Positions 3,372 through 62,590 of a stretch of 64,000 nucleotides of DNA are shown one piece after another. How positions within the stretch are numbered: the first letter of the stretch is position 1; every line of letters begins with the position of its first letter. The translations under genes were made by a program, and so were the position numbers. A model generated the notes under the pieces. It did no database searches. It saw only the letters and a program-made list of their open reading frames with translations, and was not told the DNA's origin. The stretch covers positions 16,683,001 through 16,747,000 of the forward strand of contig OY997596.1 of the NCBI GenBank assembly GCA_963921825.1, in the 5' to 3' direction. Origin of the DNA: Erodium maritimum. Its lineage: Eukaryota > Streptophyta > Magnoliopsida > Geraniales > Geraniaceae.

Positions 3372-3380
3372 TTCATAAAT

Positions 3381-7625: not shown

Positions 7626-7755
7626 GCTCTTTCATGTTTGATGTACGCTTGTAAAAGTCTCTGTAGCTAGAGACTTTTTGTCCTCCCTTTTCAATCTTTG
7701 GAACGGGAGAGATTTATATACTGCTTTGCTTATCAAAAAAAAAACAAAGCCTTAC

Positions 7756-28022: not shown

Positions 28023-28361
28023 CATTGCCAACGAAAAAAATAAGAACATCGAGAAAGAAGAGAGTAGTATAATGAGAGGATTTGTGTAGATGTTTGAAAA
28101 TTGAAGCTAAGCTTGCTGTTTTTTTATAAGCAATGAATTTATTGATATTTGAAATTCAAGAAAAATTACAAAGATGGGGAACACTACCAGAAAGAGGTTA
28201 TCCCGAGACTAAACAACCCTTCCACCGAAACAAAACAAACCGAACTCAAAACAAACTTGAAACTGAACAAACATAAAAAAAAAAAAAATCAGCCAGTCCA
28301 GCTTTCCTGCAGTGATAAACTTCTTCCAAATCGCTTTTCTGCGTTGTATTGCTATAATTTC

Positions 28362-39675: not shown

Positions 39676-39950
39676 GAGCATCAACAATCATTTCGTCAGC
39701 AACCGACGAGATGACGCTGGCGAGATGGATTAAAAAATTGTTTTTTTCTCTTCAAGCCAGCTCACCGCCAGCAAGCTCTGCAGTGGTGTTTTCGTTGTCG
39801 GCGGAGAACCGCCGACGAGATGGGAAAAAGTATATATTTTTTAAAAATATTATAAATTTAACACAACAATTTTATTATAATTAGAATAATTAGCACACAC
39901 ACGATTGATAAAAACATAAACGATATATAATTTTATTACACGTTCACGAT

Positions 39951-40332
39951 TTACATCTCGTGAACATAATAGAGGAATTTGGGTTGGTCTCTAACGACCT
40001 CCCAAAGATAGCACTTCGTGAATTGTTGGCCATGGCGCCTGAAGTACTCGTCCGCCGCTGCAGAGCGATGGTAATTCTCGGTATTTCCTGGCGGGGCTGT
40101 CTGAACTGCTAGACGGTATCAAAGTTCAAAACGGTGGATTTTCTAGGCTAGATGCTGCCAGTGGTCTCTACACTGCTTTTGGGTTTGTGGCGGGGCACCG
40201 GCCGTGGACTAAATTGGCGAACACTACCGGCCACTACCTATTATTTGGGCCCGATCGGGCGTCGTGTAGCCAGCATATGACCAACACCATCTCTTCCTCG
40301 GGACTCCATGGGTGTGCTGCTACGCCGACCAT
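39951..40332 (-). pseudogene. SANT/trihelix-like accessory gene, type B, in H1
   Basis: From ATG at 40332 the minus strand gives HPWSPEEEMVLVICWLHDAR and, after a stop and frameshifts, a RDHWQHLA segment. It then reads HRFELxYR, TAPPGNTENYHRSAAADEY and CYLWEVVRDQPKFLYYVHEM plus stop. It matches the type B copies at 61934-62323 and 62852-63088. It is a short SANT-like protein lacking the long C-terminal tail of type A. It lies downstream of type A on the same strand, next to the left terminal repeat. Confidence 0.7.
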
Positions 40333-40719
40333 TGGATCTTCGAACAAGAGGAGAAAATTAGGACGATCAAAGGTTGGGAGTAAGAGAGGTTATTGGGAGA
40401 AGAGGTGTGAAAATATAGAAGGATGGGGTGCATTTTATAGGCCAAGCCGCCAGCCACTTTAGGGGCATTTTGGTCATTTTCATGTTGGTGACAATAATGT
40501 CACTCATCCCAAGAAACCTACAATGCACTAAATGTAAAAAAAAAACTACTAATTCTTTTAAATTATTTAAAAAACAACAATGCATTACCGAAACAGAAAA
40601 TACAAGTTTGGAGTGAAAAAAAAACTACAATTTTTTGTAAATTAATTAAAAACAACAATTCATTAACGAAATAAGAAATACAACTTAAACAAAAACACAA
40701 GTACATAAAATAAAGACCG

Positions 40720-41780
40720 TCGTCACTAGTTCATCAGATTGCGTAAAATCGCAAGTTGCACATTGTGTTCCTCGAGCTGGGGGGGGGGGGGGGGCGGGGG
40801 GAGTCATGGACGTAGTGTCCTTTGCTTCAGCGAGCACCCATTGATCGAATGCCTTGAGCTTCAGCTGCGCGGCGGTCTCAATGGTCCTGACGGTGCTTGC
40901 TTCTTTGACCGCTAAATGGGCCAGCTGAACACGCTCTACAACCGCAACCTTAGAGGGTGCAGAGTTTTTACCTTTGAGCCTCGCAGCCTTTTGCAGCCTT
41001 CTGGCCCATAGGCCTCTGGTACGGCGGTTGGCACTCCATATTAGCACCCGTCGTCTGCTGACTGTCCTCAAACGTCGTGTCTTCACGAGTGCGCTTCCCC
41101 GAGTCGCTAGACTCCTCGACATCAAACTGAGTACGCGGTGTCCCTTCATCGTGCTCCTCAACGGCAAAATAATATGAATTCCACTTGTTTTGGTCTTTCA
41201 CAAGTTTCCACCAATGTTTCCATGTGAATGGATGTCCATTCGCCTGTTCGTATTTTTCCTCGACCAAAATCATGATTTCATCATCCTAACGGCCGCTCCG
41301 GTGGTCCCTGCAGTTCTTGACAAACAGCCTCTGGAAGCTCGTCACTTTGGTACTGACTTGACCCCAGTGGTCTTTGCACTGCTTAGCCGTCCTCAATGGA
41401 TCATCCCGGCCACAAGTACCAGCAAGTTTTTCAGCGATGGTCGCCCAGTACTTTAGATTATGCTTCTGATTCTTGTGAATTGAGTCGTACGAATGGTGCA
41501 TCCAAGCTCGAACTAACCGCTCGTCCTCGTCGGTTCTCCACAAGCATCGCTTCCCTTTTCCCTTTGATGGAACCACGTCGACGGACTCGGTAAGAGTTGG
41601 AGAGGAATTGACCGTCGGGTTGGAGGAAAGGTTCGGTGAAAAGAACTCTTGCGAAAACGCCGGCGAGGAGCTGGCGGGGAGGTGGCTGGGAGCTGGCGGG
41701 GACGTCGCTGGCGAAGATGGCTGGCGAGGATCTTCTCGCAGGCAGTTCACGCCGGTGCCAACAACTATATTATCCACCAA
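40720..41780 (-). pseudogene. SANT/trihelix-like ORF1, type A, in H1
   Basis: From ATG at 41780 comes a Pro/Ser-rich start, then KRCLWRTDEDERLVRAWMHH, HNLKYWATIAEKLAGTCG and KQCKDHWGQVSTKVTSFQRL: a Myb/SANT-like trihelix domain. After frameshifts near 41280 and 40985 the protein continues with GHPFTWKHWWKLVKDQNKW, the TFEDSQQTTG region and QLKLKAFDQWVLAEAKDTTS at the C-terminus. In Pong-like elements this Myb-like ORF1 product is needed with the transposase for movement. Frameshifts make it inactive. A G run at 40780-40802 follows the tail. Confidence 0.8.
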
Positions 41781-42062
41781 AATCTAAATTGTCCAATAGA
41801 ATACCCTTGATCCTTGTTAATTTTAATTTAAAATAACACACACCAATATTATCCAAAAAATCTAAATGTTCAATAGAAGAACCTTGATCATAGTTTTTAT
41901 GTTAAAATAACACACACCATAACTACAACATTTATGTCGAAACCAACCCTAACCCTTATAAAAACCTACCCTTATAAACTAAAAATCACAAACTCTCTAC
42001 TCTCACTATTCATCCTTCTCACAAATCATCGTCCCGACCCGCATTCTTGTTTGTCCGTCATC

Positions 42063-43317
42063 ATGGCCAAACTACCCGACGATGTTGATTTCAATTCCAT
42101 TTTGGAGGAGATGCTCGAAGATTGTCTGTCCACCGACGGGGGGTTGTTAGAAGACGCTTTGGTCGATTCTCCTCCACGGAAGAGAAAATACATTTCACGT
42201 GACCGGGTAGCCGCAAACAAATGGTTAATGAAGGACTACTTCAACACTAACCCTGTGTACACCGAGGTGCATTTTCAACGTCGGTTCAGAATGCCAAAGG
42301 ATGTGTTCCTCCGTATCGTACATGCATTGGAGCAGCACGATGATTACTTCAAGGAAAGGTTAGATGCATTAGGTCAAGTTTCATTTTCTCCTTATTAGAA
42401 ATGTACTGCCGCCATTAGGCAATTATGTTACGGAATTGCAGTTGATGGGTTGGACCAGTACTTGTAGATAGGGGAAACAACGTCTTTGGAATGTTTGCGA
42501 ATTTTTGCAGTGGAATCAATAGAGTATTTGGTCCTACATACCGGCGTAAGCCTACACAGGCTGATATGGACCACATTTTGGCGGTTAATGAAGCGCGAGG
42601 GTTCCCGGGCATGCTTGGAAGTCTTGACTACATGCATTGGGAGTGGAAGAATTTCCCAAAGGTGCTTCGAGGAGCACATTCTCGGAGGGACCACGGTAAT
42701 CGACCAATCGTTGTCCTCGAGGCGGTTGCTACTCGCGACTTATGGATTTGGCACTCCTTCTTCGACATGGTGGGCTCGAACAACGATTTGACGGTGCTCA
42801 ACCATTCCAGACTATTCGCGGACGTTATCATCGGTTGAATACACGATAAATGGTAACCAGTACACACTTTTGTATTATCTTGTCGATGGCATATACCCTT
42901 CGTGGCCAGTTTTCGTGAAAACAATTCCACTACCTCAAACTTCGAAACAGAAAAAGTATGCTGAAGTCCAAGAAGCGTGCATGAAGGATGTAGAACGAGC
43001 TTTCGGTGTACTCCAATTCGGTTTCACATTATCAAACAACCGAGCCGCTTGTGGGTTTTCCCAAGTCTATCGGTTTGGTCATGAATGCGTGCATTATACT
43101 GCACAATATGATAGTTGAGGCTGAACGTCATACGTACGACGGGTACCTTGAACAAACAGAAGAAGGTGGTCCAAGTCAAGCACATATTACACGAAGAGGC
43201 TTTGTCCCGACCAATGTCATACTTGGAAACACTTCGAGGATGCAAAATGAACGGGTACATTACCGGTTGAAGGACGATCTCGTCGAACACATCTGGAATA
43301 AATTTGGAGACGCCTAG
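42063..43317 (+). pseudogene. PIF/Harbinger DDE transposase (plant transposon protein)
   Basis: ATG at 42063 opens MAKLPDDVDFNSILEEMLED, then NPVYTEVHFQRRFRMPKDVF, a helix-turn-helix-like region typical of Harbinger transposases. A stop at 42396 and frameshifts follow. The catalytic core appears in pieces: first Asp in GSLDYMHWEWKNFP (about 42615-42660), second Asp in MVGSNNDLTVLNHS (about 42770-42810), Glu in MKDVERAFGVLQFGF (about 42982-43026). The frame closes near 43317 after LKDDLVEHIWNKFGDA. The family cuts and pastes elements at TTA sites. This gene is divergent from the two SANT-like genes and is dead. Confidence 0.85.
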
Positions 43318-43880
43318 CTGCTATTATTGTTTATTAGGTTTTAAGTTCAGTTCTAGGTCATTCAGTTGTTGTTCGCCTTGTCTCAGTAGCTTCTTCTTCC
43401 ACTCATCTGTTGTACTCTTATCTGTGATGTTTATGCTTATTTGTATCCTTTATTTTGTCGGGAGTTCCTTTTATTCTATACCGTTTGGTGTGATGACCAC
43501 TTTTTTTCAAGTTGTAAATGGTAACTCCGGAACTTGTGTTTCCCGCCATCTTATTCGTCATCTCAGGCAAGGCAAAGCTGTTTGATCGAGCTTTGATCGA
43601 ACTTGAACTTGACTCGATTAATACTTGTTGTTTTTACATTTAATATTTAAATGTTACATAAAACAATACATTAAAAAATCATTTTCCCCATCTCGCCGGC
43701 GGCTCCCCGCCGGCAACAAAAATGCCACTTCAGAGCTCGTTGGCGGTGAGCTCGCTGGGAAAGGAAAAAACAGTATTTTAATCCTCCCCGCCAGCGCCAT
43801 CTCGCCAGCTGTCGACGAGATGGTTGTGGATGCTCTTATCTTGTTTCTTCTTCATCCGGTTCATCACATGTGCTTTTTTC
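43318..43880. other. right-hand non-coding part of H1 and junction
   Basis: This holds the 3' UTR-like DNA of the transposase gene and the right subterminal region rich in CCGCCGGC/CTCGCCGGC motifs (43690-43835), mirrored at the left end. From 43839 the next element begins. Confidence 0.5.
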
Positions 43881-46112
43881 CTCATATTTACCCCCCAAGC
43901 ATTTCAGCTATGTCCACCCAAAAACCCATAACCTATCCCTTAGACACCCCTTCCACGACCTTCACTGGTCGGAGCTGCGAGATGCTCCCGAAACCACCAC
44001 TCCTCCCGACTCCGACTCCAAGGTTAGAGGCATCCCCCGCCACCACTACCCTCTCACCGTCCACAATCGTTGGCCAAAACCAACATGCACGATCTTCTCT
44101 TTTGGGATAATACCAAACATCGCTTCTCTGATCCTCTGGGCCACCAGTCGGATCCCAACCACATTCGGACTCCTCGTCAACGAGTCTAGATATTGTCCAA
44201 GAACAACTTACAAAGGTGTCCCTCGAGACTATTATGACGAATGACTTTTATGAGGATGATGACGAGGTGCTGGAGGTCCCGGTAAACACGATTCCAAATC
44301 TTGACGACTCCCACTATCGTTTCGCGCTTGTCGGGCGACTTCTCGCGGACAAATGTGTAAGGCCGCATTCTTTATGTATCATCGTTGCAAATTCATGGAA
44401 CGTGGAGGACCTCATGGTCCAACCACTAACCGAAAAGATCGTTTCCTTTTATTTCTCCTTTAAGGAGGCGATGGAGGGACTTCAGGCTAGGGAGTCGTTG
44501 CCGTTTTACGACATAGTACTTCTCCTTACGCCTTTACCGCCGAGGACCCAATTGGAGAGCCTATGTTTTCACTCCATCCGGATCTCGGTTAGAGCCTTCG
44601 ACATCCCGGTCGAAGCTAGAACCTTGTAGATGAGGGCCTTTATTGTACAAAGCCTGGGAAGGGATGTGGAGATCTGTCGGGCAAACACTCCGAGAAGCCC
44701 AAGTAAGCCCCGTGGATGGGATAACTTTCTCTAGCTTCGGGTTGAACTAGACGCCACAAGGCCCCTACGACTCCACTTGATCATGTAGTTGGACGTGAAC
44801 ACAAAGCCGTTGAAAGTATGGATGAAGTACAAGAAAATAACGGACTTTTTCTACCTGTGTGGCCGCCTTATCCACGTGAATTGAGACTGTGTTGCCGTCC
44901 TCCCGGGAGTGGATGAACTCGCCAGGCCCTACAGGGAATCTCTTCGAGCACCCTCATCACTCAAATCAAAAGGGATTTTTCGAATGGACATGAATGCCAT
45001 GCCTCCGCAACCACGCCCACAACCACTTAGCAACACCATTTTCTCACCTACTAACCTTTTTGTTTCGAATATTGTGACAAGAACCCAGGAACAAAAGAAG
45101 CCTTCCCTCCTGGATGTGCCCAACGCCCCGAGGGGGTGCGAATCTGCTCCAAGTCTCGAAGTGCTTGAATCTATAGCTCTGCCTATCGATCACGGTATCG
45201 GAAACCCCATACCGGTTGTAACGTTGAAGGATGTGGGGTGCGGGAAGGGATCGGTAGTATATCCCTCGACCCCGTAGACCGTTAAATCTACATATCTTCC
45301 AAATCTAAAGGCTCTTGAACCCAACATAGATTGAGCGAACACGAACCCGAAGGTAGGTGAAGAACCACAGACCTTGGTTGTGGAAACACAATCACTGGGG
45401 ATACCAATTCAGCAATAGTTAAAGGCGCCCCAAAGACACATTATCCATCACATTCTCCAACACGAGATCTTAGCGGGTTTCATGAAATGTCAAAAACTAG
45501 CCCCTATTATAGAGAAGGTGAAGACTGAAGTACAAAAGATACAGCCAACCAAGAGAATCCCGAGGGAAGCAAAGACCCTCAAGGCTCAAGCCAAGGAGAA
45601 GGAGTCCCTCCCAGGGGCGGATGCTACAAGTTCCAAGAAGCGGTCTCAGGTTCGGATGGACATTGACTAGCATGTGACGAAAGACCACCATGTTTATAAC
45701 CTGCCTAGATCGACGAAGGCTGACAAAAAACCTCGTCGAGAGTTATGGTAGGCCTTTGGACTATTGGGGGTTTGATTATTTTCAACTCCTAACCCTCTCA
45801 TGGCCCTATATAGAAGGGTCATGTTCCATGGGGTGATACCATCACTGTCAAAGCGACCCAATGCAATCTCCTCTTTGGGAATGTAACACCTCTGTATCGT
45901 AAAATTATGCGCATCTACAGATATCAGCTCTCATATACCATTTGGTGTAGATTATTTTTCTTAACCATGTATGTTGGATCACCTATTTGTTCCCAAATGG
46001 GGCATTCCGGTTACTCCCTTGGCTTGTATCGGCTTTATCCCCTAAACTTTGGTATTGTATCTTGTTACTTCTTTGAATGAATACATACCCTCTACTAAAA
46101 AAATAAGAACTT
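43880..46112 (+). pseudogene. LINE ORF1 remnant with poly-A tail
   Basis: The strongest frame (44216-44629) reads RFALVGRLLADKCVRPHSLC, then SWNVEDLMVQPLTEKIVSFY and IRISVRAFDIPVE. This is the N-terminal domain found in plant LINE ORF1 and related proteins (DUF4283 type, from memory). A preceding segment with RGIPRHHYPLTVHNRWPKPT and broken downstream frames to about 45670 extend it. The 3' end ATTGTATCTTGTTACTTC, ATGAATACATACCCTCTA and an A run at 46099-46105 form a LINE-type tail. No reverse transcriptase region is present, so it is ORF1-only or internally deleted. Many stops show it is dead. Confidence 0.65.
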
Positions 46113-46859
46113 CCTGTCTACCTTTATTCGGTAGGACATGAGGGTTAGGAAAAAGATTGGATTACAACCCTGACAACCAACATCGACTCAGAGGATCAGC
46201 CAACACAGGACCCTCATAGGCCCAAAATAAAAGAGAACAAGCTTTCCAGAAAACATGGAGCTCAAGTAGGAAGCTCAACTTTTTCAACCAATATAAGGAG
46301 TGGAAAGGCGAACCACAAATTTAAAGTTTTTTAAAGGAGAAAGCTGTAACATCATTCTTGGGGTGCATAGATAAAAAAAAGAGGACGTTTGATCAAGTGG
46401 AGAACGACCTGACGGAACAAAAAATATATATTACTACTTCTAGTGTGTGTAAATAATTTGTTTTGATCGAAATATATAATTTTACTAAACATTAGATAAT
46501 AAAAACATATAAAAGATCAGCGGGAGAGCGGATCATTCGAAAATAATCCTACAAAATAATCTTAGAACCGTAACCGAGGAATAATCGGTCTTGACATAAG
46601 GGTTAAACGCCAACCAACAGAAATTGAAATGAAAAAAGAACCAATCTTACCTCGACCTGATCCACACACGAGTGCTTAAATGCTGCTTAATCCTCAGTGG
46701 GGGATTATAAAACATCTGTAATAAGTGCGCGATTTGGTCAGGGATCACAATAATTGGTAGAGGAACCCAAACAAGGGTTAGGTTGCTACTACTCCCCAGC
46801 AACCTATATCTCTTAGGGTTTCCTCATTTTTCCCGACGAGGATGTTTCTCAGCCCTCGG
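46113..46859. other. gene-free AT-rich interval
   Basis: I see no coding region. Parts of 46140-46330 and 46560-46850 are probably the 3' continuation of the minus-strand ORF1 remnant that follows, but I could not confirm this. Confidence 0.35.
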
Positions 46860-47760
46860 CTAATGCTCATACGAATCCTCTGCAACTAATGTATTGGGAG
46901 GGTTGAATGTACTCTTCTTGGCAAAGTTATTATGTGGCTCACTTCCAAAGGGAGGATGAGTAGAAATCTCTTCTTTCGCCACCTCGTAAGCTACCATCTC
47001 TTGGGAGTTCCCTCTTGGTTCCCTTGTGGTGCTTATTCCTCCCAATTGTGTAGGAGCCAAGGACCCTATATTACTTGTACCACCTAAATGTGGGTTAGGC
47101 AAGACGTTGGTTGTTATGACATATAGCCTTTCACGAGCCAAACCCTCCCCTTTCCTACTTGAAGGTTGAGTGGTCAAGATGGCTTTCGAAACTCGAGGTG
47201 TGCTGGTGCTTTAGGTAAGACATGGGTTATCACTTGTGGGCCTCGGGTTGGTGGCAGTGGTGAGAAACCTAAGGGGGGCCTTTGAAGATGAGCGAGTCAA
47301 CAGTTCCTTCCAATCCGTGCTTAAGTGCTGACCTAACTTTGTGTTCCCATATGGAGTAAGAGAAAGGTCAAAGCGTGGTGACTCGGTGTGGGAGTATCGC
47401 ACTCATGGATTGCATGCCCCAAGTTACCACTATTAAAACACTCGTGCATCAGAGTGGCCCGTACAGGGTCGGGAAGCTCGTTGAACCGAAGTACCATTGA
47501 ACGACGAAGGGGTTTGGCAAGTTCATCTAAAGGAAAACCATGATCTTTCCTCCCAAATAGAGTCCTCATTTGTCACATTGGACTCTCACACATCCTCCAT
47601 GCGTGTACCCCACTGTGGTTCCTATTATTTCAGTCATAACCTTCGGCGGAAACCCCCAAGCTTGGACTATAGTTGAATGCAATCCAACCGGGGAAGAGAC
47701 GTCGCATGCAGCGGTAGATCAACGAAGATGAGAGGGGCGCTAACAAAAAACCATGATTCA
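46860..47760 (-). pseudogene. LINE ORF1 remnant, minus strand
   Basis: Read down from 47569 the minus strand gives FPLDELAKPLRRSMVLRFNE and a zinc-knuckle-like MHECFNSGNLGHAIHEC. After frame changes a Ser/Thr/Pro-rich hinge follows (47402-46860). PLRR...RLGH..C is the plant LINE ORF1 pattern of the domain behind DUF4283. It is the complementary half of what is preserved in the plus-strand remnant at 43880-46112. No poly-A end is visible. Confidence 0.55.
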
Positions 47761-49774
47761 TTCCGTCTTACCCTTTCCTTCGCCTCTTACGATGCAAAAT
47801 AGAACTCGTACACATCTAAGGCTAAGTCATTCACCACCAGGCCCTCGGTCGAGGAGCCCCACCCTTGGTAACAACCCGAAGCATGACTTTCCGGTTGTAC
47901 GACCGGTTAGAGAGCAGGAGGCCAGCAATTCCATAGATTAGGAGTGTGAGTAAAAACGTAGACTAGGAAAATTACACAAAATCGAACCAGTTTGATCCTA
48001 AAATTACCTAATCTGAATGAAAGCAGACAAAATCGGGGTACTCGGATGTTTTGTATTTGGTACCGAATCCAATTCTCCAACCCCGCACAGGTCTGGGTAA
48101 AACCCAAACCAATCCTGACCTAAATTGACAGGTCTTAATTGATAGGCCCATTCATCCACATTCGGTCACATTTGGCCTAGGGTACCACGACCTCTTTAGG
48201 CCCACTTAGAGCCCAGATGACAGGTACAACCAGCCCATATGCATAGAAATCTATTTTATCTATAAAAGGAGAATAAGATTAGATTTCACGTGCTCCCTCC
48301 ACAGTGCATAGTCGAAATCCGCACACGTTACTCGTCGACTTCAATTTCATGTTTTTTTATCCGTATTTCATACACGTTTATTTGTTCCCTTTTTATTTTC
48401 CTTTTCCCACCATTTAATTGAGCTATATAGGTAGGACTCCATCCAATAACATTCAATGTGACTCTTGGCTAGGGTATGTACTCATGTACACGTCTTACCC
48501 TATCTGATACCCTAGCTCAACCTCAGGTTGAGCATCGTAGTTGGGTTCACCAATTTTCAACTATGACCCATCACTATGTAGGTGCTCCGCTAATGCGCAC
48601 GAAGTCCACATATGTCGTCCAAACCTACTACCCCTCTTTCCCATGGATGCTCCGCTAGTGAGCATGACACCCATTAGACAGGGAGATAGTAAGGTGTTGA
48701 TAATTGGGAGGTATCGGACATGACCTATTTTTACTTGTCCGGTTATGTTTAAAACTTTTGGCACATCCTAGATGCGATAATCACGTAAAGTACATTCCAA
48801 ATGTAATGATGCCTCCAATTACATCCAATGTAATTATTCCATTGAACCTGTCAACTACATCCAATGTAATGACGATTCTAAGGGCTCACAAACAAGGATA
48901 AAAAACCAATTTTATCTTTGCATGTGAGGTGATATGCTCGATAAATAAAGTTAAGCATGCAATTCTAAAACACATAGAATTAATCATGCAAAAACTAAAC
49001 CAAGCATAAAACTATAAATGTGCACATAATAGCCCTCTAAACTAACTCCCACTAGCTTCTTGAGCTCCTTTGACTCCAAGTCGATGTCAACACCCGAAAA
49101 GCCACCAATTGACCTTTTCGCCCTTTCTGCATCTTGAGCAAAATATTACAATTGAATACATGACTCGCATGTAGAGAAATAATAAATATTACAAATAAGT
49201 GGTACGACGACCACACCTCAAAAAAATTAATTACACGCTAACTCCAACGGCTTGCAGGCCGTGAAAAGCGATGAATAATTAAAACGACCTCAAGGCTATT
49301 ACGTGCACCATGCAAACATCACATCACACAAGATGTTATCACACCACATGTTATTTTCCAGTTTTAGTTTATAGCCAAGTTTTGAAAAAATTTTAATGCT
49401 CGGTTTATCAAAACCGTTCAAAAATGAAACTTTTAGAGATTTGATTTTTGAGTTCATCAAGACGGTTCCAAACTCTTCATGACTAACTAAACGTTTTTCC
49501 CGGCATTTCAACCATCCAATGTCCATGCTCGGCCTAGATCCATCCAACAGAGCCCCGTTCGCTCCCGGTTTCGGCTCCACGAGAGTCCCGCTCCCAAGAC
49601 CCGAAAAATCTAACTGTTTCAAAAATTTACAAATTTGAAATAATTTTCAAAAGTTCATTTTTCATGGCAACAAAACCATAAGCAAGAATTTAAAACATGC
49701 TATCAAACAATATGCAAATACAAGCAAAAAACGAAAACACAACCTAACTTTTGTGAATCCTAGAGGTAGCACGA
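47761..49774 (-). mobile_element. probable leader or internal region of a minus-strand Copia-type element
   Basis: The region lies directly inside (downstream on the minus strand) of the primer-binding site at 49775-49785. It is AT-rich at 48900-49750, with one open minus frame (49299-49622, MKQLDFSGLGSGTLVEPKPG) of unknown product. No gag or pol motif is recognisable, so the element is either non-autonomous or truncated. Around 48120-48400 a CTATAAAAGGAG box and a promoter-like stretch may mark a different LTR fragment. Confidence 0.4.
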
Positions 49775-49785
49775 CTCTGATACCA
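49775..49785 (-). other. tRNA-iMet primer-binding site
   Basis: On the minus strand the sequence immediately after the LTR end (CAACA, then one base) is TGGTATCAGAG, complementary to the 3' end of initiator methionine tRNA. This identifies the adjoining 49787-58291 segment as a 5' LTR in minus orientation. Confidence 0.85.
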
Positions 49786-49863
49786 CTGTTGGATCTCTTG
49801 GTAGGGTATGAGATGAACGGACTCACAGTGGAAAAACAATTAGCACAAAGAGACCATTAAAAC

Positions 49864-52800
49864 TGTCACGCCCCAATTTCAGTAAAACCGAACTAGGGAC
49901 GCGAACATTTTAAAACATAAAAACACTTGAAAACCTGTTTTCATTAAACTCTTTAAAAGTACCATTTGTTCAACAAAATTATAAATACAGTTTAAAACAC
50001 GCCCTAACAAGTGGACAAAGTACACAGTATCCGTCACTAGACTCAAAAGACAAAACCCGGACTCCGCTCCCAGCTCCACAAGCTTCGAGAGCTCACCTAG
50101 TCCGTCCCACGAACAGTACCTGTAGGAAAAGCAGCTAGGGGTGAGCGTTCGCTCACCACCACGGATAACAGACTGACTACGGCATAATTAGCAGGCAAAG
50201 CAAGTAACACCAACAATGACTCAACACCGGGGAAACCATCCCCAACCCAAGCACTCTGACTGAACAAACACCCACGATGACCTTCCTCGAACGACTCAAC
50301 ACTCTGACACGTAAAGTAGACCTGATCCAACGATTGACGACCTCTTCCAAGGACTCAAAAGAAAGTACGCAACATCAAACAGCATCACAAGGGATCACAC
50401 ACCAACCAAGATCACAAAGGATCGCACACCAAAACAAGATCACAAAGAATCGCAAACCAGCTGCCAAGAACGCCCTCCCGAGACTCTAACCCGACCAGGC
50501 CAACCCAAGAATGCTGCAACTTACCGGGACTCTAACCCATAAGCCAGCCGGAAAACGCTGCAACTTACTGGGACTCTAACCCATAAGCCAGCCGGAAAAC
50601 GCTGCAACTTACTGGGACTCTAACCCATAAGCCAGCCAAGGTATGCTCACAAACCCAAACCACACACGCGCGGCCAGGACCCCTTTATTGGCGGGCGGGC
50701 CCCCTACCCCGTCTGAACATGCAGACGCGTGTGCTCGTGGACCCCCGTTTCAGGAAGCGGGCCCCCAACCTCCGGTAACCACAATCACAATCACAAGCAA
50801 AATCAACAACCAGTAACAACACAGGTTCAACACTCATAGGCACTCATGGCCACCAAGACACCAACCGTAAAACTCGGACTCAACAGCCCCATAGGCACTC
50901 ACGGCCTCCCAAGACACACCGACAGTAAGACACGGACTGAACATCCCCACAGGCACTCACGACCTCTCAAGACACCAACCATAAAACACGCTTGCAACTT
51001 ATCGAGACTCTAACTCGTAAGCCAGCTAAAGAAAGCTTGCAACCCCCCGAGACTCTAACTCGGTAGGCCAGCCAAGACACCAACCTTAGTACACGGGCTC
51101 TCAAGGCCACCCAAAACACCAAAGGTAAAGACACGGGTTCAACAACCCCACGGGCACTCATGGCCACCCAAAACTCAACGATAAAACACGCTTGCAACTT
51201 ACCGAGACTCTAACTCGTAAGCCAGCTAAAACACCAACAGTAAAGTACGGGCTCTCATGGCCACCCAAACACGAATAATAACACGAGCTCTCATGGCCAC
51301 CCAAGACTCAACAATAATAATACACGGGCTCTCAAGGCCACCCAAAACTCGATAATAAAACACGGGCTCTCAAGGCCACCCAAGACACCAAATAAACAAT
51401 CAACCTCTGGATTAACCCAAGCCTCCAACAGTCCCAAAATCAACAGTTTCACAATCAACCTCCGGGCATGGTCATATGCCTCCAGTAAATCAATTACGCT
51501 AAGTTCTCTGCTCCTACGACACTACTAAATGTCACATGCATTTCCAGTATTCGCTACGTTCCCGTATCATGCATTTATAATATTTGATAACCTACTTAAC
51601 CCACGACACCCCGGTGTCACATGCAATTCTACAGTTAACTTTCCCTAGTCAGGGCCGAGATCCGGCTACTTTTCCCTACCTCAACTGAAGAGCAACCGCT
51701 ACGCTTCCTAGCTGCTGACGTTCTAGCTTGCTACCTCCGGGCTTCACTTCGATCGAAGCCGGACGCTAAGGATAACAAGACAGCCATAAATTAGAGGCGG
51801 TTCCTAGGTTAATCTAAAGGTCGCGATTAAACCACTTTAAAAACCGACAGTAGTCCCTTAAACTCGAGCGGGATAAAAGCGGGGTCACGGTGAATCGGGT
51901 GGAGTACCCGAGCACCGAAACCGGTGCATGCGAGGCACAGTCCCAATGCACGAGTCCCGAGGTCCGATTCAACGGTTCGCTTTTGTTCCCCTTTTTAACC
52001 CAGCTAGCAGTCCAATTTAACTAGAGTTCCAGATTCGTTCCTAATTCCGATTACCAATCGTTTATTCAAAACAGAACGGTTTTTGTTTTAAATCAAAATC
52101 CCTTTTATTTCAAATCTGTTTCTGTTCCGATCTTTTGAGCCAAAAAAGAATCAAGTTCGGTTTTTGAACAACCGTCCCTAAATCCCGTTTACAAATTCGA
52201 TTCTCAACTCCTCGATTTAAAACCGTTTTTAAAACCGAATTGATTTTAATTCCTTTTTATTTTAAATCCCTTTTTTTCTTAAATCGGATTTTCGTTTACA
52301 ACCTTTTCTTTCCAAAACCTTGATTCCGATTCCAACCAAAGCAGATCCAAAAACCGTCTTTTACTCCAATCTGATTTTTGATTCAAATATTTCCCTTTTT
52401 AAATTAAAACCACTTTCCTTTTCCTTTCTCGTTGAATTAGTTCTAGTCTCAAGACCCATTTTAAATCCATTTTAAATCGAAACTGAAATCAACCTTCTTC
52501 TGTTTCAATTTCTCAACTTTCAGTTTAAATTCGATTTCGCTAAACCTCTATCAAGAACAAAACTAGATACAATACTGACAAAGCTTCAGTTTATAGATTA
52601 AAAAAAAAAAACACCACAAGAACAGATCCATGAGTTCTCATTTCAACAAGAACAAAAACAACAGAAACTCGAAGTACAAATAAAGGGAAGATGGAGGGTT
52701 GTTGGTCAGAGTCCGACCACCGGCGGTGACCAACCCGGCCGGGGCTTCACGGTGTAACGCTCACCGTAGGAAGCAGAAAGGGCGGCGGCGACGGCTGCCG

Positions 52801-53569
52801 GAGCGGCGGAGCACGGCGGTTCAGCCTCGGATCCGGACGAGGCCGACGATCCCGTCCCCAGATCTGTCGCGCTCGTTGGCGAGTTCGTCCGAACGGCACG
52901 AAGACGGGACTCATGTGTGGGGGTGGAGGTCGGCTGGACGGTGCACGGCGGCGGTGGCCTCGGACGGCGACGCTCGAGGGTCGGGAGGAGCTCGGTGTTG
53001 GGAGGCGTGGCGGCCGTGTGGTGGCGACCGGAACGACGAGGCAGAGAGGACGAGGTCGGGAGAGTGGGTGGTGGCCGGATGGAGAGGGAAGGGTGGTCGG
53101 AGGCGGCGTGGGTGAGGGGCTCCGGCGAGAGGATCGGGACCAGAGAGGGAGGAGGGTCGGACGGCGAGCTCGGGCTCGGTCGGCGCTGGCGTGGTTGGAC
53201 GGAGGAGGTGAGGAGGACGGAGGTGAGGGTCGCCGGAGCTGGAGAAGGGAGAGGGAGCGGTGGTCGGGGACGGCCGGCGACGGAGGAGGAAGGAGAGGGT
53301 CGGCTGCGTGGGTCGAAGGCGAGAGGAGGGGGCGGCTGAAGGAGAAGGGGAAATGGGGATTAGGGTTTCAGAACCCTAATGCCCACCCTTTTATAGGTCG
53401 GGCTTTGGGCCGGCCATTTGGGCCTCAGACAACAAATGGGCTCAAGCCCAAACCGGGTCTGGCCTGCCCAGCTTCCATTCTGTTTTTTTTTTGCCACTTG
53501 TTTCAAGAACCTACCCTAAGGTTTTAGGATTTTAAATTAATACCCTAATGAAACGAAGCGGGTTTTACA
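49864..53569 (-). mobile_element. large solo LTR, copy L5
   Basis: The element is 3706 bp. On the minus strand it begins TGTAAAACCCGCTTCG and ends GGGGCGTGACA. The exact duplication AAAAC lies at 49859-49863 and 53570-53574. It has the perfect palindrome GTGAGCGTTCGCTCAC at 50141-50156 and repeats at 50500-51400. A very GC-rich block (52700-53340) has long open frames on both strands that lack ATG starts and domains. A TATAAAA box on the minus strand (53389-53395) lies only about 175 bases from the LTR start. Confidence 0.9.
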
Positions 53570-53574
53570 AAAAC

Positions 53575-54282
53575 CATGAAACAACTACCAAAGAATAGAA
53601 TCACAAAAAAATAAGCATTTTCGTACCAAATGAAGAACACCGAGTAAGGAATGATTTGGCTTGAGCCCCCAAGACGCCTATGTATCCTCTTAGAAATCAA
53701 AGCCACGTACTTCTTCTTATGAGGACTCAAGAACACAAAAATGGAGGAAGAACACAAGCTTGGTCGAAATTGTTTGGGGGGGGGGGGAATTGCTTCCTTT
53801 TGTGTGTTTTGTCTTATTATGTTGAAAAGATGACTCTCAAGTCATCTTATCCCATCACCATAATAGAAAAATAATAAATAGGACAAGGGATGGTGTAAAG
53901 TAGATATAAGTTGGTGGAACGTTGGAGGATTGAATCACCAACGACCTAATCTAGTTAGTTTAGTTAGAACCATATAGTTAAGACTTAACTAGTTGGTTCC
54001 ATGGGCCTTTGGTGGCATGGGCCGTCCATGAGCCTCGTGGGTGATGGCCCGTGGCCATTCCTGATGAGGTCCTGTGATGCACTCATCGCCTCCACGCCTC
54101 CCATCCCAGATATGTCCAACATTATCCGACACGATCAATCCCAAGACTCGAAGTCTTGTCTCAATCCATAAAGTCCTAACTACTTACAAGCACATGACCA
54201 AAACCCAGTTTTGGTCATCCCCCGTGACAACTTCCCTCTTGGTCATTCTCCATAAATGTGTTAATTAGTTTCATCCTCCGGT
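53575..54282 (-). other. Copia LTR spacer between L5 and L6
   Basis: About 0.7 kb of the host Copia LTR, with a G run near 53777-53789 and no gene. It separates two oppositely oriented members of the same LTR family. Confidence 0.6.
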
Positions 54283-54287
54283 GTAAC

Positions 54288-57200
54288 TGTAAAGTCCCGA
54301 AAATTTAATTGTCTTTACGGGTTTTAATTGACGGGATTGGGAAGCGGTAAAAAAAATAATTCAAAAGGCTGGACCGGGCGGGCCAGACCCGGCCCAAGCT
54401 GCAGACCCGGATAGCCCGGCCCACTTACCAGGCCTGCCTATTTAAGGGCAATTTTAGGGTCAAACCCTAAAATTCCCTTCCTCTCTCTTGCTACTCAGCC
54501 GCAGCCACCCTCCCCCACTCCTTCCTCTTCGTCGTCTCCGACCCCTCCTTCCGATCCCGTCTTCGGCGACCTCCCACGTCCGGCCAGCTCCTCCCACTCC
54601 TCGTCTTCTCCAGCTCACGTCGCCGGCCACACCACCGGCCTCCCTCCACCGGCCGTCCCTCTCTGTCCTCACCCAGTCCCGAACCCGACCTCACCCTCCG
54701 TGTTCCTCCTACTCCACGCCGTCGCCCTCCCACGACCACGCCGCCGGCCAGGATCTCTCCCTCACCGTCCGCTCCTTCTCCTCCGTCCGATTCTCCGACC
54801 ACCGCCGCCCCCGTCTCCTTTCCCCACTCCGTCCTGCCACACCGAGCCCCTCCTCCTCCCAGCCGCCCTCTTCTCCGCCCCTCACGCCGCCGCCGTCCAG
54901 ATCCACCTCCGTCCCTCTCGATTCCGGCCGTCCCGAGCCCGAGCTCGGCCACCACCGTCCGATTCCGGCCGTCCCGAGCCCGAGCTCGGCCGTCCCCGAC
55001 CATCCCGTCTCCCTTCTCCTCGTCGCCGTCCGCACGGCCGGCAAGCTCAACCGAGCCACCACCACCGCCGTTCCCACCGCCGTATCCACCGCCGCCACCG
55101 TTCGTTCCCACGGTTAGGCTTCGGCCGGCTACGCCCTTACCGGTGGTCAGCCGGTTGTGAAAACCGAGCCCTTTATTTTTCCCGTCTTCGTTTTTCTGTT
55201 GAATCTTGGCTGTCGTTGAAACACTTTGTGTTAAAGTGAACTGAGTACTGTACGTAACAAAAGGGTAATGAAATGAAACCTTTTTTCGAGTTAATTTGGA
55301 TTCTATTGAGGGTTAAAACTGTTAAAGAAATTTGATTAATATTGGATCGGTTTTTAAAGTAAAAAAAAGGGAATTAATTGAATCAAAATCAGTTTATAAT
55401 AAAAGATGGTTTTGGATCTGCTTTGGTTGAAATCGAAATCACGGTTTTGGAAAGAAAAGGGTTGTAAAATGGAAAATCAAGTTTAAGGAAAAAGGTTTTA
55501 AAATGAAAAGGAATTAAAAGCGTTTCGGTTTTAAAAACGGTTTAAATCGAGGAGTTGTGAATCTAAGTCGTAAACGGGATTTAGGGACGGTTGTTCAAAA
55601 ACCGAACCTAATTCATTTTGGGCTCAAAGATCGGAATAGAATCAGATTTGAAATAAAAAGGGAATTCGTTTTAAAATAAAAACCGTTCTGTTGTGAAAAA
55701 GGGTTATTAATCGGTTTTGGAAACGACTCGGGATTTCTGGGTAAAATGGACTGCTATTGGGTTTAAAAAGGAACAAAAGCGGACCGCTGAATCGAACCTC
55801 GGGATTCGTGCATTGGGACCGTGCCTCGCATGCACCGGTTTCGGTGCTCGGGTATTCAAACCCGATTCGCCGTGACCCCGCTTTTATCCCGCTCGAGTTT
55901 AAGGGACAACTGTCGGTTCTAAACTAGACTAATCGTAACCTTTAGTTTAACGGTGGAACCGTTATTAATCTATGGCTTTCGTGTTCTCTTTAGAGTCCGG
56001 CTTCGATCGAAGTGAAGCTCGGAGGTAGCGAGCCAGAACGTCAGCAGCTAGGAAGCGTAGGGGTTGCTCTTCAGTTGAGGTAGGGAAAAGTAGCCGGATC
56101 TCGGCCCTGACTGGGGAAAGTTGACAGTAGAATTGCATGTGACACCGGGGTGTCGTGGGTTGAGTAGGTTTATTTAATTATTAGAAAAGCATGATACGAG
56201 ATTGTAGCGTTTATGAGAAAGGCATGTGACACTTAGTAGTGTCGTAGGATCAGAGAACTTAGCGATAATTGAATTACTGGAGGCATATGACCACGCCCGG
56301 AGGTTGATTGTTTATTTTGGTGTCTTGGGCGGCCTTGAGAGCCCGTGTTTTATTATCGAGTTTTGGGTGGCCTTGAGAGCCCGTATTATTATTGTCGAGT
56401 CTTGGGTGGCCATGAGAGCCCGTGTTATTATTCGTGTTTGGGTGGCCATGAGAGCCCGTACTTTACTGTTGGTGTTTTAGCTGGCTTACGAGTTAGAGTC
56501 TCGGTAAGTTGCAAGCGTGTTTTATGGTTGGTGTCTTGGGAGGCCGTGAGTGCCCGTGGGGCTGTTGAGTCCGAGTTTTACTGTTAGTGTCTTGGTGGCC
56601 ATGAGTGCCTATGAGTGTTGAACCTGTGTTGTTACTGGTTGTGAACTTGCTTGTGATTCTGATTGTGTTTGCGATTGTGTTTGTGGTTACCGGAGGTTGG
56701 GGGCCCGCTTCCTGAAACGGGGGTCCACGAGCACACGCGTCTGCATGTTCAGACGGGGTAGGGGGCCCGCCCGCCAATAAAGGGGTCCTGGCCGCGCGTG
56801 TGTGGTTTGGGTTTGTGAGCGTACCTTGGCTGGCTTATGGGTTAGAGTCCCAGTAAGTTGCAGCATTTTCCGGCTGGCTTATGGGTTAGAGTCCCAGTAA
56901 GTTGCAGTATTTTCCGGCTGGCTTATGGGTTAGAGTCCCGGTAAGTTGCAGCATTCTTGGGTTGGCCTGACCGGGTTAGAGTCCCGGGAGGGCGTTCTTG
57001 GCAGCTGGTTCGCGATCCTTTGCGATCTTGTTTGGTATTGCGTGGTTGTTAGTCGTGTCTTTGGAGGAGGTCGTCAATCGTAGTGTGAGGTCTACATCAC
57101 GTGTCCGAATGTTGAGTCAGTCGAGGAAGGTACTGGTCGTGTGTGTGTCTTTTGGGTCGTGGTTGGTGTCCCCGGCTTTGTCTGCTAAGTATGCCGTAGT

Positions 57201-57512
57201 CAGTCTGTTATTCGTGGTGGTGAGCGAACGCTCACCCCTAGCTGCTTTTCCTACAGGTACCGTTCGTGGGACGGACTAGGTGAGCTCTCGAAGCTTGTGG
57301 AGCTAGGAGCGGAGTCCGGGTTTTGTCTTTTTAGTCTAGCGACGGATACCTCGCCTTTTTGTCCGCTTGTGGGACGTTTATGTTGATTTGTAATTATCCT
57401 TTGTTGAACTAAATTGTTATTGTAAATTGTTTTAATGGAAATGTTTGCAAAGTGTATTCTTATTCTAAACGTTTGCGTCCCGAGTTCGGTTTACTGAAAT
57501 TGGGGTATGACA
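54288..57512 (+). mobile_element. large solo LTR, copy L6
   Basis: The element is 3225 bp, begins TGTAAAGTCCCGAAAATTT and ends TTGGGGTATGACA. The exact duplication GTAAC lies at 54283-54287 and 57513-57517. TATTTAAGG at about 54440 sits 150 bases inside. The GC-rich block (54480-55120) has a 44-base tandem duplication near 54917-54990. Palindrome GTGAGCGAACGCTCAC is at 57220-57235. From 55800 on it is nearly identical, in inverse orientation, to L5, for example the stretch with GGGGGCCCGCCCGCCAATAA near 56760. Confidence 0.9.
57220..57235 (+). promoter_or_regulatory. perfect 16-bp palindrome conserved near the LTR 3' end
   Basis: GTGAGCGAACGCTCAC is followed by CCCTAGCTGCTTTTCCTACA and GGTAC. 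Exact or near-exact equivalents occur at 19918-19933, 50141-50156 and 17566-17582, always about 280-300 bases from the TGACA end. Confidence 0.75.
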
Positions 57513-58291
57513 GTAACCCTTAGGTTTATGCATGTCAATAGATCAACATAAAATCTCAATTTACTTGATCCTATATAAGTGGCAACTAACGAGACTTTAG
57601 TATTGCTTGATAGAGCATAACGAATCGACCCTATTAATTCTAACCTTTCCGTCGTGTATGTTATCCTTTTATCTCTGATATCCTAATTGAGATAAGGCAT
57701 AGAGCCGTCATTTATATTATTCTCAATCACGGTTCCTTGATATGTGAGGTGACTGAATATATGATGCCTAGTATCATGTGCATGTCCGTGCTATTCTTTT
57801 AGTCACTCTCGATCAAGCTATCATGTGCATATCTTTCCCATACCTTAGTATGAGGGATAAATCCCTTACCCATCTTTCGTGTCACTCATACAACCTATCT
57901 CTAAGCCAATCCTGGCTGTTATGGAAGTCATGTTACGAAAAACGTTAGACTAAGGTCAAACTAAGTTGTTGACTGCATATCGATCACAAAAACTCCTTGG
58001 TCTAAGGATACATGACAAGCTACGACACTAAATATGTTCATCACTCAATCAATGGCACATATTTAAGGTTGGTCGTCCAATATCATGTCTCATATGATAT
58101 CTATGATTAGACTCTAGAATCTCATTCAAATGACTAACATAACGTAACCCATAAAGAACCATATTTCATACTAGTTGCTTATAGTGAAGCTTTGTTGACT
58201 AGAGACCCATCGAGTGTGATCTATCTCGATCTCTGGTTCTATTCGCATGGTGGGCATAAATCAAAACACAGATCGATATATTACTCCAACA

Positions 58292-60282
58292 CATAAGTAA
58301 TATACAGTCGCTTTAATTTTATTGCTAACGATGATATTTATATTTGGATAATTATGATTGGACTACGGGCATTAAAACTAACACGCCGGTAGTCTGGGGA
58401 AGGTGGAGCTCCCCATCGGTGAGTTGCGAAGGATCTTTGGAAGGGCCTCAGATCTTCCCTTGGTGAAGTCGTGGTCTTGTTCCGTCTTCAAATCTGTTCA
58501 GGCATAACTCTTTTTCTGACGAGTAGAGGGCGTGGAGGAGTGATTCTTCCGGCGACTAGTTGATGTGGAGGTCTACAACTAGTTGGAGTAAGGGTCGAGC
58601 CCACTCTTGTGTTCTTCGAAGCTCGTTGCGGTGTCCATTCGTACTTCGTTGTGTTTCAACGTGGAAATGTTTAGATCCATTTGTTGTTGCAGCTGATTCT
58701 TGTCATGGTGGACTTGATGGGGTGGTGGTGCTTTGTCCAGAATGTTACTTCCTCTCTTATTCAACTTTGTGTGGATTTTGGATCTTGTGGCTATTGGGGA
58801 TCTGATGGAGGTTGCCTTTTCGCCAAATACGGCCTTTGTGGTCGAGATTTAAGCTTGGTTATCTAGCTTGGATAGCTCTAGTATTTCGGGTGGCGGCTCG
58901 ATTTGTGGCTCCGGTGTTGTTCCCGGTGAAGTCTCCAAAGTCTCATCTAGATTCGGTGTGAGACACACTTCTCAATCAACCGGGTTGTAGATCGTAGTAG
59001 ATTGGAGTGTGACCGGTGGTGCAACTTTGTGTGTGGTGGTGTATGTACAACCTCTTCACCTGTTCCGACCTTTGTGACCGAACTTTTGAACTTGGTCCTC
59101 GACTACAGACAATTGTTGTTTTGATGGTAGCTGATTTAGTGACTCTAGTCTCGTCCCCGATAAATCTTCCGGCGAAGCTTCCCAAGTCTCATTTTAGATC
59201 CGCTACAATCTACAACCATCCAGGTTGTAGATTGTAGCGGATCTGGTCGACTTGCTTCGGGTGCTTTCGTTTGTCGTACTTTGGATCTTTCCTCTCTTTT
59301 TCGGTGTTTCTCCGGCGAATCGATGTAGATCCTGTGTGGAACGCGTTTCTCGATCTCCTTGGTTATAGATCGTTGTGGTTTTGCTCGTGTAGTGTCGCTT
59401 TGTTGGTTGTTATGGTGTTGGCCCCAGCTCGACGATGCTTTGCTCAGGTGATGCTCCTTTTCAGTTGAGAGTTAGCTGATCTCCTTATTATGTGATTTAG
59501 TGGTGTTGTTCACCTCGTTGTCCTTATATCGTTTCTGTTTGGTTCTCATTGGTTTCCTTCCACTTCGGTGGTAAGAGCTTGCGGGTTTATAGATGTTTGT
59601 CACCAGTGAGTGCTATTGGCATTTGTGCCTAATGGTGATTTCCTGCAGTTTCGATCTAAGGTTTAGTGAGTTTTAGTGGGTTTTCTCGCTAAATCTGTCT
59701 CTGTCGTTTATGGTGTTGGTTGTCGGCTTGTTAATGTTCGTCGTTCTCTCCGCGTGAGAGGTTGATGGTCCTAATGAGACATGTTGCTCTTGATTCTTAG
59801 GTAGAAAACTGAGTAGTTTCAAGTTTCCTTTAGTGTTCTTGGTTGAAAAATATGGGTTATAGACCTCTCTTAGTATCGCGTGTTTCATGGTTGTAAAATC
59901 AAGGTACTAGACCTTTTTTTCTTACTTACTTGTTTTGGGCTTCATGTTTGTAAAATCGGGTATTGAGACCTTGGTTATCTAGTTTGCACCTTTGTTGGGT
60001 TGCTGAGATTCCTTACCTAGGAATGCTCATTCATGTATCTGGTGGTCTTTTGTTGGATCCCCTTGTTGGGGTTTTCATAAGGCTGAGTTGTAATGTCAAC
60101 GCTCAAGTTTTTTTCTTTATGTTGTTTCACCTTCAATTCAATAGTTAGATCATCTTGTACTCTTCTTTTATCTCATGAAAAGTTTTAAAATTTAAATTTG
60201 TATTCGCTGATAAAAGAAAACCAATAGATTAGTGATAGGTTACAACAAGGTGAGATTGGTGGCCAACATGAACAAAAGGTAA
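58292..60282. repeat. gene-free repeat-like DNA with LINE-type composition
   Basis: The first about 90 bases flank the Copia LTR. From about 58385 to 60180 the sequence is G/T-rich with loosely repeated phrases (CCGGNGAAGNTTCC...AAGTCTCAT near 58935 and 59175; TTGTAAAATCnnGGTA near 59894 and 59950). This resembles the non-coding, poly-A-type element 3' parts elsewhere in the window. No protein domain is recognisable. A perfect hairpin at 59196-59244 is listed separately. Confidence 0.4.
59196..59244. repeat. perfect 22-bp hairpin with 5-base loop
   Basis: The left arm 59196-59217 (AGATCCGCTACAATC... to ACAACC) and the right arm 59223-59244 (GGTTGTAGATTG... to GGATCT) pair completely. The loop is ATCCA. 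The right arm partly repeats a phrase seen near 58985 (GGTTGTAGATCGTAGTAGAT) and 59360 (GGTTATAGATCGTTGTGG), so the hairpin may come from an inverted repetition inside a repeat. Confidence 0.9.
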
Positions 60283-60619
60283 TTAAGGCATCCACAGTCG
60301 TTGGCGGGGACGCACTGGCAGGGAGAAAACGCCGGCGAGGAGGAGGCGTTGAGCAGGCGGGGAGGTCGCTGGCGGGGAAGGTAGCCGTTGAGTTCCTCGC
60401 CAACACTCCTCGCTGGCGAAGTGAGCTGGTCTTCATTGGTCGCCACGCCGGCCTTTGGCTGCTGACGCGCTGGCGACACGTGTCCCTTCGTTTGCAGCCA
60501 ACATTTAATTTTTTTCCCTTTCCCCCTATAAATACCAACCCTATTGTTTCATTTTTCACCCACACTTTTACCTCTCTTCTCTCTATTCTCACTACATACT
60601 AATATATTTTCCGTTTTAC

Positions 60620-61563
60620 AATGTCGTTCGATCTCAACGAGTGGGGCCACGTGTTTAGGTCGTTGCAGGACGACCCGATGACGCAAGAGTTTTTTTACAC
60701 CAAACCTTCCATCGGATCCGACAAACGTTGCATCTCCAACGCTTACCAAGGCCGCCGGCGTGGTTCCACCAAAACCTAGAGGGAAGCGAAATCTGTGGAG
60801 CGACGATGAGGATGATCATTTAGTTCGAGCTTGGATGCACCATTCTTTCGACTCAATTCATGGGAATCAGAAACACAATCTGAAGTATTGGACGACCATC
60901 GCGAACAAGTTGCTGATACGTGTGGACCGGATGATCCGGTAAGGTCACATAAGCAGTGCAAAGACCACAGGGCCCAAGTCAATTCGAGAGTGACGAACTT
61001 TCAGGGGATGTTCATACGGAACATTAGGGACCACAGGAGCGGTCGTTCCGGTGATGAAATCATTTCATTGACCAAGCAACAGTACGAGCAGAAGGAAGGA
61101 CATTCATTCACTTGGAAACGTCAGGTGGAACCTAGTCAAAGACCAACATAAGTTGAATTCAAATTTTTTTGACGTCGACGAGTTAGTTCGATATCGACGA
61201 GTCTACCGACTCGGGCAAGCGCACTCGTGAAGACACGACGTTTGAGGATAGTCAGCAGACCACGGGTGCTACTACGGGGTGCCAAACGGCGTACAAACGG
61301 CCTATGGGTCAGAAGGCTGCCAAAGCTGCGAAGCTCAGAGGTAAAAACCCTATAGCATCTAAGAAAGAGCTTGTCGATAGTGTTCAGCATAATCATTTAG
61401 AGGCGAAAGAAGAAATCGACGCCAGGGAAAGAGAAAGCGTTGTGCAGTTGAAGCTCAAGGCTTTCGATCGATGGTTGCTAGAGGAAGCGAAGGACACGTC
61501 GACCATGACTCCCCCCCCCAGCTTGAGGCACATTATGCGACCCTTGCGATGTTACGCGATCTG
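60620..61563 (+). pseudogene. SANT/trihelix-like ORF1, type A, in H2
   Basis: ATG at 60620 opens MSFDLNEWGHVFRSLQDDP. A stop follows near 60777; the SANT domain (KRNLWSDDEDDHLVRAWMHH, HNLKYWTTIANK) continues in another frame. The next frame has KQCKDHRAQVNSRVTNFQGM and HSFTWKRQVEPSQRP, then after further shifts TFEDSQQTTGATTG and QLKLKAFDRWLLEEAKDTST. The last codon region ends near 61563. It is the counterpart of 40720-41780. Several frameshifts make it non-functional. Confidence 0.75.
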
Positions 61564-61933
61564 ATGAAGTAGTGTCGCCGCTCTTGCTTATTTATTTTAA
61601 TTAGTTTGTTTTTTTTTAATTTGTAGTTTGTTTTTCAGTAATGAATTGTCATTTTTTTTATGTTGTAGTTTGTTTAATGTAATGAATTGTTGCTTTAATT
61701 TAATTTAAGAAGTTGTAGTTTTTAAAAAAAATTTAATGCTTTATAGTTTCTTGGGATGCGTGACATAATTTCCATGAGCATGCTAAAAGGACCAAAATAC
61801 CGCTACATGGCCGGCGGTTTGGGCTATATACGACACCTCATCCTTTCGTTTTTTTTCCACACCTCTTCACCCAACAAGGTCTCTTACTTCCGAGCTTCTT
61901 TCCTTCTAATTTCTTCTCTTGTTCGAAGGTCCA

Positions 61934-62323
61934 ATGGCCAGCATAGAAGCACACCCCTGGAGGCATGAGGAAGAGATGGTGTTGGTTTTGTGTTGGCTAC
62001 ATGATGCCTGACCGGGGCCAAATAATAGGTACTGGCCGGAAGTGTTCGCCAATTATGTCCAAAATGCTCATGCCGATGCCCCACCGCGCACCCAGAAGCA
62101 GTGCAGAGACCACTGGCAACAACTAGCCCGAAAAATCCAGCGTTTTGAACTTTGCTACCGTGAAGCAGTTCAGGCTACCCCGCCGGGACAAACCGAAAAT
62201 TACTTTCGATTTGTAGCGGCGGACCGGTATGTTAGACAACATGGCCACCAGTTCATGAAGTATTTGCTTTGGGAGGTCGTTAAAGACCAACTCAAATTCC
62301 TCCAGTACGTTCACGAGCTGTAA
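61934..62323 (+). pseudogene. SANT/trihelix-like gene, type B, in H2 (one stop codon)
   Basis: ATG at 61934 opens MASIEAHPWRHEEEMVLVLC. A single TGA at 62009-62011 (probably from CGA) interrupts it. The rest is open: YWPEVFANYVQNAHADAPP, KQCRDHWQQLARKIQRFE, TENYFRFVAADRYVRQHGHQ and LLWEVVKDQLKFLQYVHEL plus stop. This is the best-preserved type B copy, about 129 codons. Its order of SANT helix, KQCxDHW and WxxVKDQ matches type A, showing that they are related proteins, but it lacks the type A C-terminal third. Confidence 0.8.
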
Positions 62324-62590
62324 ATCGTGAACATGTAATCTCGTTTCTGTTTTTCTCGATCTTGTGTGTGCTAATAAAAATTACCGTCTTAATTTTCGTC
62401 AGAATTTATACTAATAATATACTAAAATATTATTTTTTTTTCTTCCCGTCGGCGGCTCCCCGACGTCACAAAAGTCGCCGCTACAGCTTGCGTAGGTGGT
62501 GAGCTGGCTGGAAAGAAAAAACTAATTTTTTAATCCTCCTCGACGGCGCCTCCTCGCCAACAGCCGGCGAAATGGTTGTGGATTCCCTTA

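Follow-up and report, generated by a model that had tools for sequence, protein, structure and literature searches.

Transposition of PIF/Harbinger elements has been described as requiring two proteins, a transposase and an ORF1 protein that binds the element ends and, in zebrafish, carries the transposase to the nucleus (PMC2836001). In the same account, Ping/Pong of rice and Harbinger3_DR of zebrafish encode a DDE transposase and a separate Myb/SANT protein, need both proteins, have 3-bp target site duplications (TSDs) and share their ends with MITEs (PMC2836001). The elements reported here resemble Ping/Pong and Harbinger3_DR in the kinds of protein encoded, in TSD length and in their end-sharing MITEs, but differ in layout: both genes are described within one element there, with one SANT gene, whereas here the transposase is separate and two SANT-like genes occur. 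PIF-like elements without ORF1 are treated as incomplete or defective in the reports cited (PMC2213677, PMC6327408).

Gene pairs in the window

In the window, which is the whole 64,000-nucleotide stretch of Erodium maritimum DNA that was analysed, a long SANT-like gene (A) has a short gene (B) downstream of it in the same orientation at three places, designated H1, H2 and D. This arrangement had been described in a first-pass annotation and was borne out by the window copies, in which the A-B genes are broken by stops or frameshifts. The features are as follows.

39676..43835: H1, A-B element (left) and transposase-only element (right), apparent head-to-head fusion
39951..40332, minus strand: H1 gene B, broken by a frameshift and stops
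40727..41653, minus strand: H1 gene A, broken; PF13837/PF00249 and PF14303 matches
41653..41660: putative H1 fusion junction, A-B homology stops and transposase-only homology starts within ~7 bp
41653..43835, plus strand: transposase-only half of H1, nearly complete; 82-90% identity to L034-L041
42063..43318, plus strand: H1 transposase gene (Plant_tran / DDE), frameshifted; PF04827 E=5e-34 in one piece
60286..62587, plus strand: H2, A-B element without transposase; flanks TTA / TTA
60621..61572, plus strand: H2 gene A, broken
61934..62323, plus strand: H2 gene B, with a single in-frame TGA
62591..64000 and beyond the window, minus strand: H3, incomplete copy facing H2 tail to tail
25683..28025 (approximate), minus strand: D, a divergent and older A-B pair, gene A at 26998-28025 and gene B at 25683-26528

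H2 is a full-size, normal, old A-B element. H3 consists of a B remnant (~62851-63100) followed by AT-rich DNA of no relation, and a single TTA (window 62588-62590) is common to H2 and H3, as if one had entered the target duplication of the other. Neither inverted terminal repeats nor a transposase were found for D, the gene B of which is interrupted by a ~440-bp insert (window 25990-26430) that reads like, and is presumably derived from, the chloroplast gene ndhA (an exon end and the start of an intron).

The arms of H1 are 167 nt long and 79% complementary. On the right, H1 aligns with transposase-only (T) elements (best match L036) starting 39 bp in from the 5' terminus and continuing to the 3' end; on the left, its alignment with A-B elements (L010) starts ~407 bp in from the 5' terminus and likewise reaches the 3' end. 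Gene A of H1 is short of ~20 N-terminal codons, and the A-B part has lost its 5' end. Each outer end of H1 is a 3'-type end, and the triplets on either side (TCA and TTA) are unequal. Two outer ends of the 3' type and one junction without either 5' end are what fusion predicts, and H1 is, as judged from these alignments, a fusion of one T and one A-B element, head to head. It probably originated when a deletion spanning the facing 5' ends of a T and an A-B element, in head-to-head arrangement, joined the two. Elsewhere in the genome, two transposase matches (G000, C6:19379103 and C6:19381312) lie ~2.2 kb apart on opposite strands, and an H1-like fusion could start from such a configuration. 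A derivation of H2 from H1 by deletion was ruled out because H2 keeps the A-B 5' end that is absent from H1.

The two SANT-like genes had been regarded as relatives, and this held: A of H1 and B of H2 are homologous (tblastn, E=3e-10), and in L031, where both genes are intact, A and B share 28% identity over 120 aa (E=3e-14). The A proteins of H, D and other copies are closer to one another than to B, which places the A/B duplication before the split of these families. A is of the common ORF1 type, with a Myb/SANT region ahead of a NAM-associated one; in L031, PF00249 and PF14303 exceeded the Pfam cut-off and PF13837 fell just under it. B is a short SANT-like protein that fell below Pfam cut-offs in all copies examined; a search of solved structures with B gave a best E of 0.41, single-chain models were poor (mean pLDDT of 63 for B and 50 for A), and a search for B relatives in viral contigs led nowhere. 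A TATA box was located upstream of A in 14 of 16 copies, at a distance of 85-96 bp, and upstream of B in 21 of 22, at 98-109 bp; the latter marks B as a gene in its own right. With a stop in A and a TATA box for B, the reading of B as a terminal exon of A was ruled out. B had also been considered as a separate element nested repeatedly at one site, which was rejected because one copy after another has B between the same two ends.

A-B and transposase-only elements across the genome

The assembly that holds the window (one genome, 763 Mb, 40 contigs) yielded 129 SANT places in a Pfam search, from which 20 weaker, A-like ones were taken, favouring long frames; the locus samples in this study are small, hand-chosen and biased to long frames. 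B was located downstream of A on the same strand in 18 of the 20 A loci, with the B of L014 being a distant fragment, and none was found in L016 and L021. The recurrence of the pair, claimed from three copies, thus extends well outside the window; those three copies, however, are descendants of one old arrangement and not independent as had been stated. A transposase homologue of >56% identity was found in none of the 20 A loci (~10 kb each). Five of them contained homologues of only 29-56% identity, which accordingly belong to other families.

A-B copies aligned end to end over ~2.4 kb with 91-98% identity within the L010 group (88% for L025) and about 72-78% identity over the full length to L027 and L028; copies with deletions or inserts aligned piecewise. 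Intact-looking copies measured 2,337-2,407 bp (an element of ~2.3-2.4 kb), and those with deletions or inserts 1,835-3,410 bp. Matching TSDs flanked 15 of 18 A-B loci (GTA in the case of L009); that of L013 was off by one base, and L015 and L018 were without a recognised 5' end. L018 also retains, on one strand (~1518-3389), pieces of a further Harbinger transposase together with an A-like gene, like conventional two-gene elements. A was intact in six and B in two of the first 20 A-B loci, and both were intact in none, but L031 has open frames for both A (325 aa) and B (129 aa) within 2,337 bp flanked by TAA on either side. Of the intact frames expected beside a transposase, L031 supplied A and B together, and a matching transposase was missing from all 20 A loci.

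Comparing the substitution patterns of A and B, as had been proposed, gave a median dN/dS of 0.45 for each (15 copies; 93 pairs with B dS >0.12), against 0.90 and 1.33 for B off-frame in the same set of 93 pairs. The dS of A and the dS of B were correlated with r 0.92 across 105 non-independent pairs. Within the window, B had a dN/dS of 0.38 between H1 and H2 (1.14 and 1.08 in the other frames), 0.27 between H2 and D, where dS is near saturation, and only 0.71 between H2 and H3. Bootstrapping of five pairs placed A at a dN/dS of at least 1 in 0 to 1 of 1000 replicates, rejecting neutrality, and B in 65, 0, 28, 101, and 132 of 1000, so that for B neutrality was rejected only in the deepest or clearest pairs and constraint was weak in single pairs. 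Young copies showed values of 0.59 (A) and 0.75 (B), higher as expected if terminal branches are neutral. By these comparisons, A and B are apparently two separate genes, co-inherited and under constraint.

Loose candidates numbered 6998 for A, 4334 for B, and 6094 for T, and the 150 best of each were scored. With the H1 transposase as the query, all of the best 150 matched, mostly with long open frames, and the H1 transposase was approximately 84-94% identical to the other 149. Eight T loci picked for long frames all had transposase frames of 421-462 aa, and A or B matches were found at none of the eight. Both ends were recognised in four of them, which measured 1,962-2,177 bp (an element of 2.0-2.2 kb), and the TSD matched in three of these four. 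A TATA box was present 85-106 bp ahead of the start in the six of the eight loci tested. The L036 transposase matched PF04827 (E=6.4e-86) and PF13359 (E=4.7e-9), and three acidic motifs were present in seven of the eight T frames, with the second motif altered to GSNNYL in L041. The median dN/dS of T was 0.32 (28 pairs). L027 also contains, ~80 bp from an A-B element, a transposase-only element of another kind (6775-9242 on the plus strand of L027), which has ends GAGCAGGAACAACGGGCCGG and 355-bp inverted repeats (87%); its end motif has 16 exact genomic sites, and it is possibly another split family.

A-B and T elements alike have 3-bp target duplications, and their terminal inverted repeats carry GAGCAYCCACA at both ends; the 5' and 3' ends diverge from each other beyond ~14 bp. 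Over 110 bp of the 5' end (20 A-B, 6 T), the mean identity was 0.58 for T to A-B and 0.62 for T to T, and over 200 bp of the 3' end (24 A-B, 7 T) it was 0.57 for T to A-B and likewise 0.57 for T to T, so that T ends resembled A-B ends no less than they resembled one another. For the T element L044, the closest matches to its 5' end were seven A-B ends (0.90-0.93), the best T end reaching 0.89. The exact 22-bp 5' motif occurred at 358 genomic sites (reversed control 0) and the exact 25-bp 3' motif at 454 (control 0). Among the first 100 listed 5' sites, 13 stood before a listed A or B, 13 before a listed T, none before both, and 74 before neither; this matching used the best-150 lists of A, B, and T, in which two A places were entered twice.

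Combining the 100 listed 5' sites with the listed 3' sites gave 35 paired ends. Twelve of these were 273-340 bp apart and represent MITEs whose ends are those of T and A-B, five were 576-1,400 bp apart, and one spanned 1,864 bp with an A. Five pairs fell at 1,972-2,093 bp (three with a listed T) and 11 at 2,246-2,496 bp (four with a listed A), while one of 7,904 bp is a T element carrying a 5.9-kb insert. None of the 35 had the size of a three-gene element (~4 kb).

Among the matches listed, 41 B-A pairs within 5 kb were on the same strand, with A upstream in all, and none were on opposite strands. Three of the best 150 T were within 5 kb and five within 10 kb of a listed A or B, the random expectation within 5 kb being 0.6. 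The three are H1, L042, and L043, of which the latter two are separate neighbours, and the mild excess of T and A-B neighbours may reflect an insertion preference. L042, L043, and L044 were considered as three-gene elements and rejected, being two neighbouring pairs and one T with a 5.9-kb insert.

Interpretation and rival explanations

The elements are PIF/Harbinger by transposase, TSD, and Myb/SANT partner, and they depart from the usual picture of an autonomous element, in which one unit contains both genes. The reading that I favour, with a probability of about 0.68, is a bipartite PIF/Harbinger cut-and-paste transposon, in which T and A-B form different elements and are cross-mobilised by way of the ends they have in common. 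Here, the T element encodes the DDE transposase only and the A-B element the SANT-like proteins A and B, with B under its own promoter, and A and/or B would bind the ends and bring the transposase there, as in Ping/Pong and Harbinger3_DR. Because T and A-B have the same 5' and 3' ends, the proteins of either could act on both as well as on the short MITEs. If the SANT partner or partners bind the ends and recruit the transposase, neither element would be expected to move without the other; by analogy, T would depend on A in trans, and perhaps on B as well, and A-B on T, which is the mutual dependence that I infer for the two. That they form an obligate multipartite DNA transposon, with catalyst and partners on two end-sharing elements, neither of them autonomous, and lasting through several subfamilies, is put forward tentatively and at slightly less than even odds. 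Since the 5' and 3' ends are unlike beyond ~14 bp, two end-binding proteins could take one each, and, as a guess, A may read one end and B the other. This would explain why two SANT genes have been retained, and such a division of labour at the ends is directly testable.

Alternatively, a three-gene autonomous element may exist at low frequency, have died out or have escaped sampling, and T-only and A-B-only copies may have arisen from it by ordinary deletion, their frames still being open only because the copies are young. PIF-like copies lacking ORF1 or transposase have been published beside two-gene autonomous ones (PMC6327408), H1, alone among the window copies, holds all three genes, and a rare three-gene element could be missed as scoring was confined to the top 150 candidates for each of A, B, and T. 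I nevertheless consider this unlikely. A-B copies that are 72-78% identical (L010 versus L028 and L027) have the same 5' end and leader, which puts the transposase-free form before a divergence of up to 0.97 in A dS (L010-H2), and A and B have been constrained since that divergence; moreover, the structure of H1 fits fusion, and the paired ends include no pair of ~4 kb. The original proposal of a three-gene autonomous element of the H1 type, with a heterodimeric end-binding partner, draws on the long inverted arms that enclose all three genes in H1. It was not upheld and appears highly improbable, given the unmatched flanking triplets and apparent fusion origin of H1, and given that none of the 20 A-B loci and none of the eight T loci contained all genes, with a matching transposase near no A locus and A or B at no T locus.

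A-B elements might also be hitchhikers of a conventional two-gene Harbinger, with A and B serving otherwise, for example in repression or competition. The distantly related transposases near A-B in five of the 20 loci (29-56% identity) and the same-strand transposase remnants and A-like gene at L018 would suit this idea, yet a T-only family that shares the ends of A-B exists and is itself constrained, and T is without the ORF1 described as needed in known PIF/Harbinger transposition (PMC2836001), making the idea quite improbable.

Comparison with other PIF/Harbinger families

MtPH-E, OsPIF1, and ZmPIFa are like T in that a transposase is present and ORF1 was not found (PMC2213677, PMC6327408), but unlike here, no end-sharing partner element bearing ORF1 is described for them in these reports. 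PePIF1 of Phalaenopsis likewise includes TIR-bearing copies without ORF1 or transposase, as well as many MITE-like copies (PMC6327408). PePIF1 is, however, reported with 66 putative autonomous two-gene elements (PMC6327408), whereas the present samples contained no complete element. A survey of the PHIS superfamily in 836 genomes describes a TWA TSD, TIRs starting with A or G, and a Myb/SANT partner, as here, while its autonomous candidates differ in mostly having two ORFs and an average length of ~4.1 kb (PMC4482050). Partner elements of the kind proposed here were not found in open-literature titles and abstracts, a search that left out Repbase and most subscription journals.

A stable split between two elements, if true, would raise the question of how selection maintains trans-acting genes in a selfish element. 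It would also mean that annotation expecting both genes together would call both halves defective, and would offer a reason for the PIF-like families that have been reported without ORF1. Such a split would then be the transposon counterpart of a multipartite virus.
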